NCBI GenBank assembly: GCA_018399715.1 | Contig: JAGYNR010000010.1 | Span: forward strand, 1-39,944 | Direction: 5' to 3' | Source: Desulfobacterales bacterium | Lineage (GTDB): Bacteria; Desulfobacterota; Desulfobacteria; Desulfobacterales; SKZT01 | Length of the DNA stretch: 39,944 nt | Shown: piece by piece, positions 21,984-28,875 of the stretch | Layout of the letters: every line of letters begins with the position of its first letter | Position numbering within the stretch: the first letter of the stretch is position 1 | Notes under the pieces: generated by a model | What the model was told of the DNA's origin: nothing | The model's database searches: none | The model's input: only the letters and a program-made list of their open reading frames with translations | Program-made: the position numbers and the translations under genes

Positions 21984-23072
21984 TTACCGTTGCGGACGTT
22001 CACCCAATTTCACATTGATCCGTTTGAACTGGTGATTCCGAAGTATTTTTAATTCAACGACATCTCCGGGTTCCTCTTCCCGGAGATACTTGATCAGTTC
22101 CTCGGATGACGTTACTTTTTTTCCATCAAAGGCGACGACAATGTCTCCGCCCACCGGAATGATCATGTTTCCTGCCCGAATTTTTCGTGAAGCGCCTCTG
22201 ATACCTGCCTTTTCAGCCGGACCTCCCTGTATGACATCCACGATCATTGCACCGCGGTTTATTTTTAAATCCAGTACTTCTGCAATTCCTGGAATAATCG
22301 GAAAAATCTGAACGCCGAGCCAGGGATAAGAGACATATCCTTTTTGAATCAATTCCGGAAGAATCCGCTGTGCAATTTTTACCGGTATGGCAAACCCAAT
22401 TCCCACGTTCGCTCCTGTCGGGCTCAATATGGCTGTATTGATGCCAATAATTTTTCCGTCGGAATTCAACAACGGTCCGCCTGAATTGCCGGGATTGATG
22501 GAAGCATCGGTCTGAATAACATCTTCAATTTCCATTCCGGAACGGGATTTAATCGTCCGCCCCAGAGAACTGATAATTCCGGTGGTCAAGGTTTCTCCCA
22601 GCCCAAATGGATTTCCAATAGCCAGCACCTTTTGTCCAACCTGCAGATTTTGTGATTCAGCCATCGGAATCGCAGTCAGCTTTCTGCCCTGGCTTTCAAT
22701 TTTAATGACCGCCAGGTCATTTGCCGGATCAGCTCCCACCAGCTTTGCCTTCAGCTTATCCCCGTTAAAAAGAGTTACTTCCAGGCGTGTGGCATCCTTT
22801 ATCACATGATTATTGGTCAGGATATAACCGCGGTCATCCACGATAACCCCTGAGCCCGCACCTTCCTGGGGCACCGGGTAAAAAAAGAAATCCCGTGTAA
22901 TGACAACGCTTAAAATATTGACCACGCCGGGAGCTGCGCTCTGATATATTTCGATATTGTTTTTTTCGTCAGTTGTCTGCGCAAAAACGACAAATGTGTC
23001 AATCCAAAGGCTTAGCAGCATGACCGAAATGATTACCACTGCTGTTAATAGCGAATTTATGGTTCTTTTCAT
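21984..23072 (-). CDS. HtrA/DegP-like serine protease with PDZ domain
   Basis: 362 aa. A signal peptide or membrane anchor (about 9-31) is followed by a trypsin-like S1C domain with an intact triad: His89 (LTNNHVI), Asp119 (NDLAVIKI) and Ser197 (INPGNSGGPL). One PDZ domain (about 255-355) follows, with a carboxylate-binding region near the NRGAMIVDVIQGGPAEKAG segment. One PDZ is as in DegS-type proteases, not two as in DegP. Expected role: periplasmic protein quality control. It lies 19 bases downstream of a paralogue, and the pair follows trpF on the same strand. Confidence 0.92.
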   Translation of the reverse strand: MKRTINSLLTAVVIISVMLLSLWIDTFVVFAQTTDEKNNIEIYQSAAPGVVNILSVVITRDFFFYPVPQEGAGSGVIVDDRGYILTNNHVIKDATRLEVTLFNGDKLKAKLVGADPANDLAVIKIESQGRKLTAIPMAESQNLQVGQKVLAIGNPFGLGETLTTGIISSLGRTIKSRSGMEIEDVIQTDASINPGNSGGPLLNSDGKIIGINTAILSPTGANVGIGFAIPVKIAQRILPELIQKGYVSYPWLGVQIFPIIPGIAEVLDLKINRGAMIVDVIQGGPAEKAGIRGASRKIRAGNMIIPVGGDIVVAFDGKKVTSSEELIKYLREEEPGDVVELKILRNHQFKRINVKLGERPQR

Positions 23073-23091
23073 TTACCCTCCTGATCCTTCA

Positions 23092-23934
23092 TTACCGGTA
23101 ACTACCCGCTCTTGAGATAATCCGCCATATAATAAAAACAATCAAAACGCCCAAAACAATAAAAACAATTGGATTCGGCATCCATGTTTCTTTCTTGAGT
23201 TTCTTCAGCACATTTTTTACCTGATCAACCGGGAGTGCAAAACCAACCCCCACGCTTGAACCGGTAGGGCTAAAAATGGCAGTATTGATGCCAATGATAT
23301 TACCGTTTGAATCCAGTAATGGTCCCCCTGAATTGCCGGGATTAATAGAAGCATCCGTCTGAATCATGTTTTCGATAACCAAATCCTTTCCGACCCGCAA
23401 ATCTCTTCCGATGAAACTGATGATGCCGGTTGTCAGGGTTTGATCCAGACCGAACGGATTTCCAATGGCCAGGACCTTGTCTCCAATATGTAAATCTCTG
23501 GAGTTTCCCAAAGTCAATGGCTTTAAAGGAGCGCCTTTCGGTTCAATTTTAATCATTGCCAAATCCAGTGACGGTTCACTGCCAACCAGCTTTGCCTTGA
23601 ATTTTCTTCCATCCGCCAAGGTAACATCCAGTTGCTGCGCATTTCGAATAACATGATTATTGGTGAGAATGTGACCTTTTGTATCAATAATGGATCCTGA
23701 ACCAACCCCTTCTCCCGGAACAGGGTTTAAAAAAAAATCATACTGAATTACCACGGATGAAATATTCACAACACCATCTTTGGTTTTTTGATATACCTGG
23801 ATATTATTGATTTCCTCTTCAATAAGCGCATAGACCAGATGAGGCAGAAAACACACGCAGAAGCATAACAAAATCACAATACGGTTCAACACTCCTGGAA
23901 AAAAATAGTTTTTGGACGAATCAGTTGTCATCAT
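23092..23934 (-). CDS. HtrA-like serine protease lacking PDZ, with C-terminal membrane anchor
   Basis: 280 aa. An N-terminal hydrophobic segment (about 17-37) is followed by an S1C protease domain with intact triad: His94, Asp124 and Ser202 (INPGNSGGPL). Where the paralogue has its PDZ domain, this protein has a short linker and a transmembrane helix (about 255-273, NPIVFIVLGVLIVFIIW) ending in a basic tail RIISRAGSYR. It may thus be tethered by both ends. Sequence similarity over the protease domain to the next gene is strong, so the two arose by duplication with PDZ loss here. It starts 45 bases after trpF. Confidence 0.9.
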   Translation of the reverse strand: MMTTDSSKNYFFPGVLNRIVILLCFCVCFLPHLVYALIEEEINNIQVYQKTKDGVVNISSVVIQYDFFLNPVPGEGVGSGSIIDTKGHILTNNHVIRNAQQLDVTLADGRKFKAKLVGSEPSLDLAMIKIEPKGAPLKPLTLGNSRDLHIGDKVLAIGNPFGLDQTLTTGIISFIGRDLRVGKDLVIENMIQTDASINPGNSGGPLLDSNGNIIGINTAIFSPTGSSVGVGFALPVDQVKNVLKKLKKETWMPNPIVFIVLGVLIVFIIWRIISRAGSYR

Positions 23935-23979: not shown

Positions 23980-24648
23980 TTAAAAAATCTTTCGAAATTG
24001 TCTGCCGGCAATTTTTGGATCAGAGCCACTGGTGTTTACGGCATTAATAAAATATTTTACTTTCTCAATATCTTTTCGTCCCCGGGATTTTTCAACACCG
24101 GAACTGACATCTACTGCATCCGGACACCCCTCATCAATGGCTTTACCAACATTGTCTGTGTCCAGCCCACCGGCCAGAATCATGGGATAGGATTTTCCAA
24201 ATTCTGAAACCTGGGCATAATTCCATGCCATGGCATTTCCACCCGGGAGTTTTCCTTTTCCGCATTCAACCAGAAAAGCGGTGGCCGGATAATTGGCTGC
24301 CTCAGTTATACAGGGTTTTTTACCGGAAAAAAGGCTTTTGATGACCAAAAGCCCCTCTTTCAAGAGATTTTCATTTAGGGAAGAAGGTTCCTTTCCATGA
24401 AGCTGCACTGATGTCAGTCCGCAGAAATTCACTTTTTCCATTATTACCTCAAAGGGTTCATCAACAAAAACACCCACTTTTTGAACGGAACGTGGCAGCG
24501 CCTCACAAATTTTCCGGGCTTTGGAATCGGTAACAAATCTGGGGCTTTTTGGGAAAAACACAAGCCCGATGGCATCTGCTCCCAGTTCTGCACATTTTAT
24601 CGCCTCATCCACCCGGGTTAGTCCGCATATTTTTATCTGGGGATACAT
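23980..24648 (-). CDS. trpF: Phosphoribosylanthranilate isomerase
   Basis: 222 aa, TIM barrel of normal TrpF length. It isomerises phosphoribosylanthranilate to CdRP in tryptophan synthesis. QIKICGLTR (about 4-12) holds the catalytic Cys8, GLVFFPKSPRFV follows, and the C-terminal part has ILAGGLDTDNVGKAI and AVDVSSGVEKSRGRKD with the catalytic Asp. It is the last trp gene of the operon: trpB and trpA are not downstream, so tryptophan synthase must be encoded elsewhere. Confidence 0.95.
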   Translation of the reverse strand: MYPQIKICGLTRVDEAIKCAELGADAIGLVFFPKSPRFVTDSKARKICEALPRSVQKVGVFVDEPFEVIMEKVNFCGLTSVQLHGKEPSSLNENLLKEGLLVIKSLFSGKKPCITEAANYPATAFLVECGKGKLPGGNAMAWNYAQVSEFGKSYPMILAGGLDTDNVGKAIDEGCPDAVDVSSGVEKSRGRKDIEKVKYFINAVNTSGSDPKIAGRQFRKIF

Positions 24649-24667
24649 TTTTTGATTTCTCCCTTTT

Positions 24668-25468
24668 TTAAATTTGTCCGCATGACAATAACTGCCGAAG
24701 AAAATCCTTGGGAGACGTTGCCCGGACGATACTCTCTCCGATTAAAAAGTTGTAAATTCCAAATTTCAGGTTTTTTTCTATGTCTTCCGGCCGGCTGATG
24801 CCGCTGGCAGCTACGGGCACCTGGTCAGAATGCAATAAAGAGGTCAGGTGCATGGCAATGTTGATATCGGTTTCAAACGTTTTTAAATTGCGATTATTGA
24901 TTCCGATCAACTTCGCACCTGAATTTGTCGCTATTTCCAGATCTGCCTCCGAATGAATTTCCACCAGAGTATCAAACTTCAATTCTTTGCATATATGCGT
25001 AAATTCGTTTAGTTGCTCTTTTGAAAGGCAACGGGCAATCAACAATATTGCATCTGCTCCAATAACAGCCGATTCATAGATTTGATATTCAGAAATAATA
25101 AAATCTTTCCGAAGCACCGGGAGACCGGATGCACTTCGTGCCCGTTTCAAATCATCAAGGGTTCCCATAAAAAAGGTAGCATCCGTTAAAACAGAAATTG
25201 CCGTCGCTCCCCCCTGTTCATAGGCCGCTGCATAAAGCGCCGGATCAAGTTCAGGCCTGATAGGCCCCTTTGAAGGCGAGGCTCTTTTTATTTCTGCAAT
25301 AATATTGATGCCATGGGGGCCTTTGTTTTTGAGTGTTTCGAAAAAAGGCCGACGGTTTTCAATTTCAGCAGCTTCTCTTCGAAGGGTGTTTTCCGGAATG
25401 TTTCTTTTGGCCGTTTCAACTTCTTGTTTTTTACGAGTTATAATGTTTGACAGGAAATCTTCTCTCAT
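24668..25468 (-). CDS. trpC: Indole-3-glycerol phosphate synthase
   Basis: 266 aa from the ATG at 25468, which has GGTGG just upstream; an ATG at 25489 would add seven residues and cannot be excluded. The TIM barrel converts CdRP to indole-3-glycerol phosphate. Motifs: IIAEIKRASPSKGPI with the catalytic Lys and substrate contacts, PVLRKDFIISEYQIYES, GINNRNLKTFETD and AASGISRPEDI. It is separate from trpF, unlike the E. coli fusion. Spacing to trpF is 19 bases. Confidence 0.94.
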   Translation of the reverse strand: MREDFLSNIITRKKQEVETAKRNIPENTLRREAAEIENRRPFFETLKNKGPHGINIIAEIKRASPSKGPIRPELDPALYAAAYEQGGATAISVLTDATFFMGTLDDLKRARSASGLPVLRKDFIISEYQIYESAVIGADAILLIARCLSKEQLNEFTHICKELKFDTLVEIHSEADLEIATNSGAKLIGINNRNLKTFETDINIAMHLTSLLHSDQVPVAASGISRPEDIEKNLKFGIYNFLIGESIVRATSPKDFLRQLLSCGQI

Positions 25469-25499
25469 CAATCCACCGGTTTTTTCCATACCCCAAAAA

Positions 25500-26516
25500 T
25501 TATCCGTTTTCCTGGGTAAATTGAATCAAAGACATCAGTTTTTCTTTCGCCTTGCCGTCGTCGATGCTCTGTTCAGCGATTTTTATCCCCTCTTTGAAAT
25601 CTCTGGCCTTACCGGCTGCTACCAGTGCCGCCGCAGCGTTAATTAACACCACATTTCTTCGGGATCCTTTTTCACCATCTAAAATTTTACTGGTGATAAG
25701 GGCATTTTCCGAGGGTGAACCACCCATCATATCTTCAGGGTCAGCCAAATCACCGAAAAATGTTTCCGGATGAATATCATAGGTTTTAATCATGTCATCT
25801 TTGAGTTCCGAGATTCTGGTGGGACCGCAAACTGAAATTTCATCAAGCCCCTCATGGCCGTAAACGACAAATGCATACCTTGACCTGAGAATCCGAAGGA
25901 CCTGAGCAAACATCTCTGTCAGTTCAGGCGCATACACGCCCAAAACATGGCAGTTTGCTCCCGCCGGATTGGTTAAGGGCCCCAGCATATTAAAAATACT
26001 CCGGATACCCACTTCTTTTCTGGGTTTGGCCGCATATTTCATTGCCCCATGATAAATCGGTGCAAACAGAAAACCAATACCAATCTCCTCCACAGCCTCC
26101 TCAACGACTTCCGGATCGATATCCAGCTTCATCCCCAAAGCCTCCAAAACGTCTGCACTACCACACTGGCTGGATATGGAGCGGTTTCCATGCTTGGCCA
26201 CTGTGACATCCGCACCGGCCACTACAAATGCGGTAGTCGTTGAAATATTAAACGTGTTGACCGCATCTCCGCCGGTGCCAACAGTATCGACAACAATCGG
26301 GGAGGATATCTGAATGCGAAGCGCCTTTCGGCGCATGGCCCGGGCCGCTCCGGCCAATTCCTCGAACGTTTCACCCTTAGTCGCCAAAGCAGCCATCATG
26401 GCACCGATTTGTGCGTCAGTCAGAGCCCCTGAAAAAATCAATCCAATCATTTCAGACATTTCCGCTTCGGTCAAATCAATTCTTTGAACAATTTTATTCA
26501 GCTTTTCACGAAACAT
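25500..26516 (-). CDS. trpD: Anthranilate phosphoribosyltransferase
   Basis: 338 aa, standard length. It joins anthranilate to PRPP. The glycine-rich PRPP motif VDTVGTGGDAVNTFNIST covers about 76-93; AKHGNRSISSQCGSADVLEALG (107-128) and the Mg-binding DE region complete the class. A strong AAAGGAGG precedes the ATG. It is not fused to trpG. Confidence 0.96.
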   Translation of the reverse strand: MFREKLNKIVQRIDLTEAEMSEMIGLIFSGALTDAQIGAMMAALATKGETFEELAGAARAMRRKALRIQISSPIVVDTVGTGGDAVNTFNISTTTAFVVAGADVTVAKHGNRSISSQCGSADVLEALGMKLDIDPEVVEEAVEEIGIGFLFAPIYHGAMKYAAKPRKEVGIRSIFNMLGPLTNPAGANCHVLGVYAPELTEMFAQVLRILRSRYAFVVYGHEGLDEISVCGPTRISELKDDMIKTYDIHPETFFGDLADPEDMMGGSPSENALITSKILDGEKGSRRNVVLINAAAALVAAGKARDFKEGIKIAEQSIDDGKAKEKLMSLIQFTQENG

Positions 26517-26543
26517 GGATGGGTTCCTCCTTTTTCAACTTCT

Positions 26544-27116
26544 TTACGTGTGAGTCATTTTGAGAAAATTTCTCAATAGTCGCTTTCCAATTGGGGTCAT
26601 AATTGACTCTGGATGAAACTGAATTCCTTCAGTTAAATGGTCCCGATGACGAAGTCCCATAATTTCACCGTCCTCTGACTCGGCTGTAATTTGAAGGCAG
26701 TCAGGGAATTTTTCTTTAGAGACGACGAGTGAGTGGTAACGCATGGCTTGAAACGGCTTATGGATACCCTTGTAGATAGATTTACCGTCAGCGGTAACAG
26801 TCGATATCTTTCCGTGCATCAATTGTCTTGCAGAAATTATGTTTCCACCGAAAGCATACCCGATGGACTGATGGCCCAGACAAACGCCGAGAATAGGAAT
26901 TCTGCCGGAAAATTGCCGGACTATTTCTACGGATATGCCGGCTTTTTCAGGTCTTCCGGGCCCGGGGGAAATAACAATTCCGGTAAATTCCCGGGAGTGT
27001 AGTTCAGAAATAGCGACGTCATCGTTTCGGATGACGTTTATATCTGCTCCCAGTTGTCCCAAATACTGAACAAGATTGTAGGTAAAGGAATCGTAATTAT
27101 CAATCATTAATATCAT
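26544..27116 (-). CDS. trpG: Anthranilate synthase glutamine amidotransferase subunit
   Basis: 190 aa from the ATG at 27116, which overlaps the trpE stop as ATGA and has GAGGAGG upstream; the longer reading from 27137 is rejected. Class I GATase: oxyanion region SPGPGRP (50-56), nucleophile Cys79 in ILGVCLGHQSIGYAFGG, and the His-Glu pair in QFHPESIMTPIG. It supplies ammonia from glutamine to TrpE. The overlap implies translational coupling and balanced synthesis of the two subunits. Confidence 0.96.
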   Translation of the reverse strand: MILMIDNYDSFTYNLVQYLGQLGADINVIRNDDVAISELHSREFTGIVISPGPGRPEKAGISVEIVRQFSGRIPILGVCLGHQSIGYAFGGNIISARQLMHGKISTVTADGKSIYKGIHKPFQAMRYHSLVVSKEKFPDCLQITAESEDGEIMGLRHRDHLTEGIQFHPESIMTPIGKRLLRNFLKMTHT

Positions 27117-28615
27117 TTCCCGGCCTCCTCGTAGCATCGGCCCTGTTCAATCAGCTTCAATGCCTTTTGGATGGACATGGCCTTGTTAACCGTTTCGACA
27201 CGCTCCCGCTCGGGATCGGAATCGGCAACAATTCCGGCTCCCGCCCGAACCGTCAGGATCCCATCTTCTACACAGGCGGTTCGGATTGTAATGGCCAGAT
27301 CCATATTTCCGCTGAAGGATATATAACCGACTGCCCCGCCATAAGGTCCCCGGGGAGTGTTCTCCATCTCGTGGATGATTTCCATTGCCCTGATTTTAGG
27401 AGCACCTGACAAGGTACCCGCTGGAAAAGTTGCAGCCAGCAAATCCCAGGCATCGCAGTCACGCTTGAGGTCGCAGGAGATGTTGGACACTAGATGCATT
27501 ACATGAGAGTATCGTTCTACAATCATCAAATCAGTTACCTGAACAGAACCTGTCTCAGCAACACGGCCCAGATCATTTCTACCGAGATCTACCAGCATTA
27601 CGTGTTCCGCCCGTTCCTTTTCATCGTTGAGCAGTTCATTGGCCAAAGCCCTGTCCTCCTGTTCGGATTCCCCCCGCGGGCGTGTCCCGGCAATGGGGCG
27701 AAGGGTTGCCGCCCTGTTTTCCAGACGTACCATGGTTTCAGGTGATGACCCCACCAGGGCCATGTCATCTAAGTGAAGAAAGTAAAGATATGGCGATGGA
27801 TTGATAAACCGTTGCGCCCGGTACAGATTCCACAGATCAGGTGCTTTATCACACACAAAGGGCTGAGAGATAACCGATTGAATAATATCCCCGGCGACAA
27901 TATATTGTTTTACGTTTTTGACCATCTTCTTAAATGTTTCATTTGAAACCGATGATGTCAGTTCAAAAGAATTCGCTATTCCCGGGGATATATCTCCCGA
28001 AAGCGGCATTGACATAAGGTCAAGCAGTTGATGCAGCCGGTTTAAAGCGGTTGTATATGGGTCGGACAGGGTTGATCCATCATCGGTAAAGGTTATCACA
28101 ATAGCTGTCAGGGTATGGCGAATATTATCGAAAATAATCAGTTCATCAGGAATAATGAAATGAGCCAGGGGTTTATCTGCCGGCCAGCAATGAGGAATCC
28201 TCTCGAAAAAGGACACCATCTCATATGTCAGATAGCCCACCAGTCCTCCCCAGAACCTGGGTAGTTCCGGAAGCTGGGCAGGTTGGTAATGGTTCATAAA
28301 CGATCTGAGAACGCCCAGCGGATTGCCATTGTGCAATATTTCCCGTTCGAATCCGTTTTCGGAAATTTTCACAGTCTTCCGGAAAATGCGCAGATGAGTT
28401 CTTGCCGATGCTCCAAGAAAACTGTAGCGACCCCATCGCTCGCCGCCCTCGACACTTTCGAACAAAAATACCGACTTTTGACGATTCTGCACCTTTTTTA
28501 AAAGACTTACCGGCGTTTCCGTGTCGGCAAGAATTTCAACACCGACCGGAATAACATTTTTTTCCCGGGTCAACTGTAAATACTTGCTTCTTCCGGGAAA
28601 CTGCTTGATTTTCAT
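27113..28615 (-). CDS. trpE: Anthranilate synthase component I
   Basis: 500 aa. It forms anthranilate from chorismate with ammonia from TrpG. The N-terminal domain has FLFESVEGGERWGRYSFLG, the region where tryptophan feedback binding occurs in the family. The chorismate domain shows PSPYLYFLHLDDMALVGSSPE, RPIAGTRPRG, the metal motif DLGRNDLGRVA, FPAGTLSGAPKIRAMEII and GPYGGAVGY. AAAGGACG precedes the ATG. It is the first structural gene of the trp operon, preceded by a complete attenuator. Confidence 0.96.
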   Translation of the reverse strand: MKIKQFPGRSKYLQLTREKNVIPVGVEILADTETPVSLLKKVQNRQKSVFLFESVEGGERWGRYSFLGASARTHLRIFRKTVKISENGFEREILHNGNPLGVLRSFMNHYQPAQLPELPRFWGGLVGYLTYEMVSFFERIPHCWPADKPLAHFIIPDELIIFDNIRHTLTAIVITFTDDGSTLSDPYTTALNRLHQLLDLMSMPLSGDISPGIANSFELTSSVSNETFKKMVKNVKQYIVAGDIIQSVISQPFVCDKAPDLWNLYRAQRFINPSPYLYFLHLDDMALVGSSPETMVRLENRAATLRPIAGTRPRGESEQEDRALANELLNDEKERAEHVMLVDLGRNDLGRVAETGSVQVTDLMIVERYSHVMHLVSNISCDLKRDCDAWDLLAATFPAGTLSGAPKIRAMEIIHEMENTPRGPYGGAVGYISFSGNMDLAITIRTACVEDGILTVRAGAGIVADSDPERERVETVNKAMSIQKALKLIEQGRCYEEAGK

Positions 28616-28638: not shown

Positions 28639-28664
28639 AAGGCCGCGGAAATCTCCACGGCCTT
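28639..28664 (-). promoter_or_regulatory. Second hairpin in the trpE leader
   Basis: On the minus strand AAGGCCGTGG and CCGCGGCCTT form ten pairs (one G-U) around AGATTT, starting directly after the U-tract of the attenuator terminator and ending about 20 bases before the trpE start. Its 5' arm resembles the 5' arm of the terminator (GACCGTGGG), so CCCACGGTC could pair with either. It may stabilise the 5' end of processed mRNA or add a second decision; unknown. Confidence 0.5.
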
Positions 28665-28701
28665 AAAAAAAAAGACCGTGGGTTGGGCGCCCACGGTCTT
28701 T
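28665..28701 (-). terminator. trp attenuator terminator (3:4 hairpin)
   Basis: On the minus strand AAAGACCGTGGG pairs with CCCACGGTCTTT, 12 uninterrupted pairs around CGCCCAA, followed directly by further T residues. This is a textbook intrinsic terminator about 50 bases before trpE. Its 5' arm (CCGTGGGC, 28696-28689) can instead pair with GCCAACGG (28742-28735), the antiterminator. Confidence 0.88.
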
Positions 28702-28724
28702 ATTTGTTTTGGCAACTATTTCAG

Positions 28725-28799
28725 TTAGTTTGTTCCGTTGGCAAACCCAAATATTTGAATTTGCCACCACCAGTTATTCTGGATTTTAATGTTTATCAT
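28725..28799 (-). CDS. trpL: trp operon leader peptide (Trp-Trp-Trp)
   Basis: 24 codons. The peptide runs MINIKIQNN, then three consecutive Trp codons (TGG at 28772-28764), then QIQIFGFANGTN and a TAA stop. It lies between a good promoter and the terminator, where a ribosome-stalling leader is expected. The third Trp codon is part of arm 1 (TGGCAAA, 28766-28760), which pairs with arm 2 (TTTGCCA, 28745-28739). Stalling at the Trp codons would free arm 2 to form the antiterminator. The Shine-Dalgarno is weak, which is the main reservation. Confidence 0.82.
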   Translation of the reverse strand: MINIKIQNNWWWQIQIFGFANGTN

Positions 28800-28846
28800 A
28801 TTCAAAAAACCGACTAATTTTCTTCTTTGTTGATTAGGCTAAAAAC

Positions 28847-28875
28847 TTTTTATCAATTCCGGATTTACTTGTCAA
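28847..28875 (-). promoter_or_regulatory. trp operon promoter
   Basis: On the minus strand TTGACA (28875-28870), 17-base spacer, TAAAAA (28852-28847). The -35 is perfect and the -10 matches four of six. The start would be about 40 bases before the leader peptide. Confidence 0.6.

Follow-up and report, generated by a model that had tools for sequence, protein, structure and literature searches.

The window analysed here is the whole stretch of 39,944 nucleotides of Desulfobacterales DNA (contig JAGYNR010000010.1, positions 1 to 39,944), and its minus strand carries the operon trpE, trpG, trpD, trpC and trpF (23980..28615), as identified from the open reading frames and from the Pfam matches Chorismate_bind, GATase, Glycos_transf_3, IGPS and PRAI, respectively. 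trpE itself, also identified by ORF and Pfam, lies at 27113-28615, behind the leader which would control the whole operon. At the other end, directly after trpF, two consecutive ORFs with GNSGGPL motifs (21984-23934, minus strand) are found, which we take, from this motif, to be HtrA-like serine proteases.

All the elements of the leader are carried on the minus strand. The -35 box is an exact TTGACA (28870..28875), followed after a 17-nt spacer by the -10-like sequence TAAAAA (28847..28852), which matches at 4 of 6 positions; a promoter scan of the window, which demands a T at position 6, did not return TAAAAA at 28852-28847. The leader peptide ORF, MINIKIQNNWWWQIQIFGFANGTN, runs over 24 codons from the ATG at 28799 to the stop at 28725 (28725..28799, stop included), contains TGGTGGTGG and presents three consecutive Trp codons, TGG TGG TGG (28764..28772), as putative sensor. 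No Shine-Dalgarno-like sequence was found before its ATG in the window, and a loose pattern identified one in 26 of 65 leaders of the relatives described below.

Six arms and two terminators can be recognized in this leader. Arm 1 (28755..28766), deduced from the fold, forms with arm 2 a 12-bp hairpin (28766-28755 with 28750-28739). Arm 2 (28735..28750; sequence and fold) is located within the leader ORF and has two faces, TTGGGTTTGCCA facing arm 1 and GCCAACGG facing arm 3; the 2:3 match associates GCCAACGG (28742-28735) with CCGTGGGC (28696-28689), with one mismatch. Arm 3 (28689..28701), the partner of arm 2, delineated by a terminator scan and arm energies, is also the 5' arm of a first intrinsic terminator (T1), whose 3' arm is arm 4 (28671..28682; sequence and pairing counts). 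This 3:4 hairpin comprises 12 bp (28701-28671) and is followed by a T-tract (28665..28670), read from the sequence. Six nucleotides past T1, the terminator scan reveals a second tandem intrinsic terminator, T2 (28639..28664, 11 bp), made of arm 5 (28654..28664; sequence and pairing counts) and arm 6 (28639..28649; sequence and terminator scan). Arm 4 (28681-28672) also pairs with the stretch AAGGCCGTGG of arm 5 (28664-28655), and in this 4:5 hairpin the T-tract of T1 plus T28671 becomes the loop. T2 is followed in the window by TTATTG, with no long T-run, so that its T-tract is weak, and it ends 23 nt before the trpE ATG, just ahead of the ribosome-binding site. Both 3:4 and 5:6 are terminator-like, in the scan of the window as in the regions upstream of trpE in relatives.

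The leader RNA is predicted to fold far more stably than its shuffled versions (z -5.97; none of 200 shuffles was equally stable). A search with the families of Rfam 15 (trp leaders, T-boxes and riboswitches included) gave no match in the window at gathering score, and we thus ruled out the identity of this leader as a T-box or a known riboswitch.

A preliminary description of this locus had proposed a complete trp attenuator with a promoter at 28875-28847. We do find the promoter box (TTGACA, with a weak -10, TAAAAA, 4/6), the 24-codon leader with its Trp-Trp-Trp run and arms 1 to 4, ahead of trpEGDCF; the three arm pairs, 1:2, 2:3 with its one mismatch and 3:4 with 12 pairs and a T-tract, are all found in the window. 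Ribosome-mediated trp attenuation at the trpE leader is strongly supported. The description also held that every part of the classical mechanism had been located within 28639-28875. The interval does contain the trp attenuator and the four-arm set, but a second terminator hairpin (28664-28639, 11 bp), conserved and complementary by its 5' arm to the 3' arm of T1, lies inside it and had been omitted. The four-arm description of this trp leader is incomplete.

Tandem terminators upstream of trpE in relatives

TrpE was found in 50 of the 58 genomes of our set of relatives, to which 80 named loci from the GTDB collection were added, mostly from Desulfobacterales and Syntrophales-like MAGs, with some from other phyla. 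The 128 upstream regions were reduced to 124 non-redundant ones by dropping the duplicates L116, L070, L065 and L084. A script detected two adjacent terminator hairpins in 72 of these 124 regions, two of which were judged false (L005, L088), and both hairpins were recognized by eye in 11 more (L007, L009, L029, L030, L059, L060, L074, L077, L080, L099, L101). Removal of the two false pairs leaves 70 tandem loci, 68 without L110 and L111, which have another core, and 65 when L012, L024 and L053, in which the leader was not found, are also excluded. The leader cluster contains 2 to 5 Trp in all of the 65 leaders, a set preselected for a Trp run, and in 59 of them the 100 nt preceding the leader start contain an exact TTGACA, versus a mean of 1.9 after shuffling. 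The preliminary description had made its reading depend on conservation in related genomes: the leader with its TGG run, the 1:2, 2:3 and 3:4 complementarities and the -35 box are all kept there.

In these relatives, arm 2 is encoded by the C-terminal part of the leader peptide (e.g., FADG, or in Syntrophaceae FVRR ahead of the stop), a CCGTGG core is common to the T1 and T2 hairpins across families, and T-rich tails follow T2 in most cases. Where extra sequence intervenes, T2 adjoins T1 and not trpE, the distance from T2 to trpE reaching 290 nt; such extra sequence, with T1 and T2 remaining together, was seen in L007, L010, L012, L023, L041, L061 and L081. Some relatives with a Trp leader present, by eye, a single terminator (L035, L038, L044, L055, L071, L091), and in more distant groups many trpE-upstream regions have neither a Trp leader nor terminators. 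The Desulfobacca-like trp leaders L110 and L111 carry tandem terminators with different cores, GGGGCCCC and GCCGTGG, and are perhaps tandem terminators without a relay between them. Another trp leader is found in L044 and L091 (Desulfobotulus alkaliphilus), with a nearly identical peptide, LCTEKNISILWWWP, followed by a long stretch of conserved sequence and, much farther along, by only one terminator.

Alternative pairings between the arms

The pairings were evaluated by a swap test, in which arms are exchanged between genomes and the energy of each own pair is compared with that of swapped pairs. Own pairs were clearly favored for 1:2 (z -5.82) and 2:3 (z -5.33), with 0 of 5000 swaps reaching the observed value in each case, and for the two terminators, 3:4 (z -18.6) and 5:6 (z -19.1). 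The mutually exclusive pairings 1:2, 2:3 and 3:4 are hence kept in relatives. For 4:5 the test gave z -5.57, against -2.91 for its mirror control, 3:6, and 4:5 was the stronger of these two in 47 of 70 loci (Wilcoxon p 5e-4). We also considered that T2 could be controlled through a pairing of arm 2 with arm 5, and this was ruled out, arm 2 fitting arm 5 no better than swapped arms do (z +1.93 at the trpE loci, +1.20 in 22 units located before other genes). As judged from these energies, the target of arm 2 is arm 3 and not arm 5.

The same comparison was made column by column, over 68 loci and 8 core columns (i.e., 544 cells). Paired cells amounted to 534 for 3:4, 526 for 5:6 and 517 for 4:5, versus 436 for the 3:6 control. 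In columns 1, 2, 3, 4 and 6, the contacts of arm 4 with arm 5 comprise 103 G.U and 3 A.C cells, against 22 G.U and 77 A.C cells for arm 3 with arm 6. The 10 cells with a broken 3:4 all retain 4:5, and 2 of them retain 3:6; of the 18 cells with a broken 5:6, 11 retain 4:5 and 4 retain 3:6. In four loci (L037, L051, L062, L076), an A of arm 4 stands opposite a U of arm 5 in column 3.

Using a TrpE tree and parsimony states, we scored the one-sided changes of paired cells as pair-keeping or not. Pairing was kept in 34 of 43 changes for 3:4, in 57 of 70 for 5:6 and again in 57 of 70 for 4:5, versus 31 of 73 for 3:6 (Fisher test, 4:5 vs 3:6, p 2.4e-6). In alignment A2, made of 50 of the 68 loci chosen by hand to thin near-duplicates and outliers, the covariation level of 4:5 was reached in 0 of 500 shuffles and that of 3:6 in 177 of 500. 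When the substitutions of T2 or T1 were re-placed as events on the TrpE tree, the 4:5 total was at least as high in 254 and 137 of 1000 replicates, so that chance is not rejected by this null, which keeps the observed kinds of substitutions and is therefore blind to a restriction to wobble-compatible changes. By these alignment counts, the 4:5 complementarity is kept almost as well as the terminators themselves, and it covaries. The comparison of genomes thus reveals, besides the parts of the leader, the conserved pairings 1:2, 2:3, 3:4, 5:6 and 4:5 and their recurrence in the phylum. The six arms constitute a chain of alternative pairings, in which 2:3 and 4:5 are conserved versus 3:4 and 5:6.

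A candidate six-arm relay and its alternatives

We calculated the folding of the leader RNA of the window, cut off immediately downstream of arm 5. With the ribosome masked at the third Trp codon, 2:3 and 4:5 each have a probability of 0.88; when it is moved to the stop codon, 3:4 reaches 0.98 and 4:5 falls to 0.02. Across the 65 loci, moving the ribosome from the stop to the Trp codons raises the probability of 4:5 by more than 0.1 in 28 and lowers it in 2, the two values differing by at most 0.1 in the other 35. When arm 6 is added to the window RNA, 3:4 and 5:6 prevail at equilibrium in every ribosome condition. The energies show a like gradation at the two steps, from -13.5 kcal/mol for 2:3 to -17.5 for the stronger 3:4, and from -11.5 for 4:5 to -16.6 for the stronger 5:6. 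Since T1 and T2 win at equilibrium, the ON state must be kinetic, and known attenuators likewise depend on a kinetically held open state.

We consider it probable that this trp leader is a leader-peptide attenuator in which the chain of alternative pairings links two successive terminators into a six-arm relay. When Trp is replete, the ribosome would reach the stop codon and cover arm 2, and 3:4 would form and terminate transcription; polymerases leaking past T1 would then meet 5:6, which would also form in this condition, arm 4 being engaged with arm 3. Under Trp starvation, the ribosome would stall on the Trp codons and cover arm 1, 2:3 would form and arm 4 would be left free. The 4:5 hairpin would then form as arm 5 emerges, before arm 6 exists, and T2 would be defeated as well, allowing the transcription of trpE. 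By this way, one ribosome decision would be passed along the RNA to both terminators, which should multiply termination and lower the basal leak without cost to induction. The kinetics, the termination, the response to Trp and the lower leak of the relay are what we infer from the conserved pairings and the calculated folds.

The same parts could also belong to a trp attenuator of the usual four-arm kind, with a second terminator behind it that escapes regulation, or a hairpin stabilising the 5' end of the mRNA, if arms 4 and 5 did not interact in the cell. The four-arm part is complete by itself, relatives with a single terminator exist, the equilibrium fold always ends in both hairpins and the re-placement of events does not reject chance. 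We nevertheless find this reading rather unlikely, as the 4:5 complementarity is preserved like a helix and 3:6 is not, and as such a terminator directly before trpE would reduce expression under starvation too. The complementarity could also be a by-product, if T2 resembled T1 as its duplicate or as a stock terminator sequence of these genomes. The CCGTGG core common to both hairpins across families agrees with this, and a duplication may well be the origin of T2, but after a duplication 3:6 should be preserved to the same degree as 4:5, and it is less preserved. As for a stock sequence, a CCGTG...CACGG hairpin followed by T's occurs at only 3 places in the genome of the window (4 strand matches; 2 for the reversed control), and CCGTGG as the stock terminator of this genome was ruled out on this basis. 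A count of core hairpins among all the terminators of the collected loci was set aside, because these loci were picked for trp and because its "isolated" class includes T2s whose T1 failed the stricter filter. We regard the by-product explanation as very improbable. Even less credence is given to T2 being a translational or processing hairpin at the start of trpE, and not a terminator: the closeness of its end to the ribosome-binding site and to the trpE ATG (23 nt) and its weak T-tract in the window go in this direction, but T-rich tails stand behind T2 in most relatives and T2 stays with T1 when up to 290 nt part it from trpE.

Known attenuators and tandem units before other genes

In its textbook form, attenuation relies on a single terminator. 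In E. coli, the trp attenuator has four arms, with one terminator before trpE, and its arm 2 lies outside the leader ORF; the his attenuator has a middle hairpin named C:D, and the ermK attenuator has a leader peptide. The six-arm relay proposed here shares with the E. coli-type trp attenuator the Trp-codon leader, the pairings 1:2, 2:3 and 3:4 and the intrinsic terminator before trpE. It differs from the E. coli layout, as generally known, by an arm 2 located inside the leader ORF and by a second terminator with its own antiterminator, 4:5. In the his attenuator, as presented in passages of PMC4046918, A:B and E:F alternate with B:C and D:E, and the ribosome position is relayed through B:C and D:E to the single terminator E:F. 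Six arms and a relaying chain of alternative pairings are thus common to both leaders, but here the middle hairpin, 3:4, is also a terminator and one chain would set two terminators. Two adjacent Rho-independent terminators are likewise found in the leader of ermK, as cited in a passage of PMC4335068, but ermK is a macrolide resistance gene of Bacillus. In the rimP leader of Gammaproteobacteria, two terminators can stand in tandem, one of which has a predicted antiterminator (PMC2965389), but the motifs are inverse and the passages on this leader report no leader peptide with amino-acid codons. The mgtCBR leader also contains tandem attenuation in one leader ("Tandem attenuators"), with two short ORFs according to PMC3641672, versus one here. 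Finally, the trp attenuators of Corynebacterium and Streptomyces share with the window a UGG-run leader and arms in triple complementarity; unlike in the window, a second terminator is not mentioned in the corresponding passages of PMC1262725. In the open-licence literature, we found no paper describing, for Desulfobacterota, amino-acid leader peptides followed by a pair of terminators which a conserved 4:5 pairing connects.

We searched 198 genomes of the phylum with R1, a covariance model built on the two hairpins. At E 0.01, matches were obtained in 153 of the 198 genomes, a level that is unspecific, since 7 of 16 genomes to which loci of other groups had led were matched as well; the distribution was therefore drawn only from matches with E of 1e-7 or lower, giving 50 of 198 genomes, by hand count from the match list, vs 0 of 16. 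The two best matches among the check genomes of other groups (L179 and L180) are not leaders. Fifty matched loci were viewed, and a candidate leader was found by a loose residue-run pattern in 42 and by eye in the other 8; in L167, the leader found by the pattern is in the wrong frame. The genes behind a chosen subset of the tandem units were identified by NCBIfam or Pfam. Besides TrpE, Trp leaders with the tandem unit precede TrpB-like enzymes (PRK12391), a DAHP synthase and an indolepyruvate oxidoreductase. Phe/Tyr leaders precede 2-amino-3,7-dideoxy-D-threo-hept-6-ulosonate synthase, DAHP synthases and Peripla_BP_6 binding proteins, as well as a phenylacetate-CoA ligase in the genome of the window. 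IlvB is preceded by an Ile/Leu/Val-rich leader, and Leu-rich leaders are followed by an enzyme resembling LeuB and by a protein of the enoyl reductase/nitronate monooxygenase-like type.

In 22 non-trpE units, chosen by hand from the 50 viewed loci with near-duplicates omitted, the own versus swapped comparison gave z -8.22 for 2:3, +1.20 for 2:5, -3.51 for 4:5 and -1.86 for 3:6. As R1 was built from T1 and T2 with a common core, the likeness between T1 and T2 in its matches is partly by construction, while the leaders and 2:3 are independent of it. On balance, we favor the existence in Desulfobacterota of a phylum-wide modular class of relay attenuators, in which a conserved cross-complementary terminator pair would be joined to one or another kind of leader peptide (Trp; Phe/Tyr; Leu; Ile/Val), these being exchangeable, ensuring a two-stage, low-leak control of the genes for aromatic and branched-chain amino acids.

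If this is true, a whole phylum uses a six-arm relay, with one ribosome decision acting on two terminators in series, which would be a natural answer to the need for an attenuator that shuts tightly and still opens completely. Such a relay would also provide a directly testable design rule and an example of one RNA output module serving different amino-acid sensors, and would add leader peptides missed by annotation.

The tandem units behind the Ile/Leu/Val- or Leu-rich leaders are those of L143, L172 and L148, with ilvB, leuB-like and enoyl reductase/nitronate monooxygenase-like genes. A second relay-like unit is present in the window's own genome (L168; G000, contig C189, 13104-13178, minus strand), before a phenylacetate-CoA ligase gene. 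It consists of a Phe-rich leader (MMAHPNIGYFFLFIDGFHFSGSIRGLAW) and two hairpins, and its T1 and T2 pair with many G.U.
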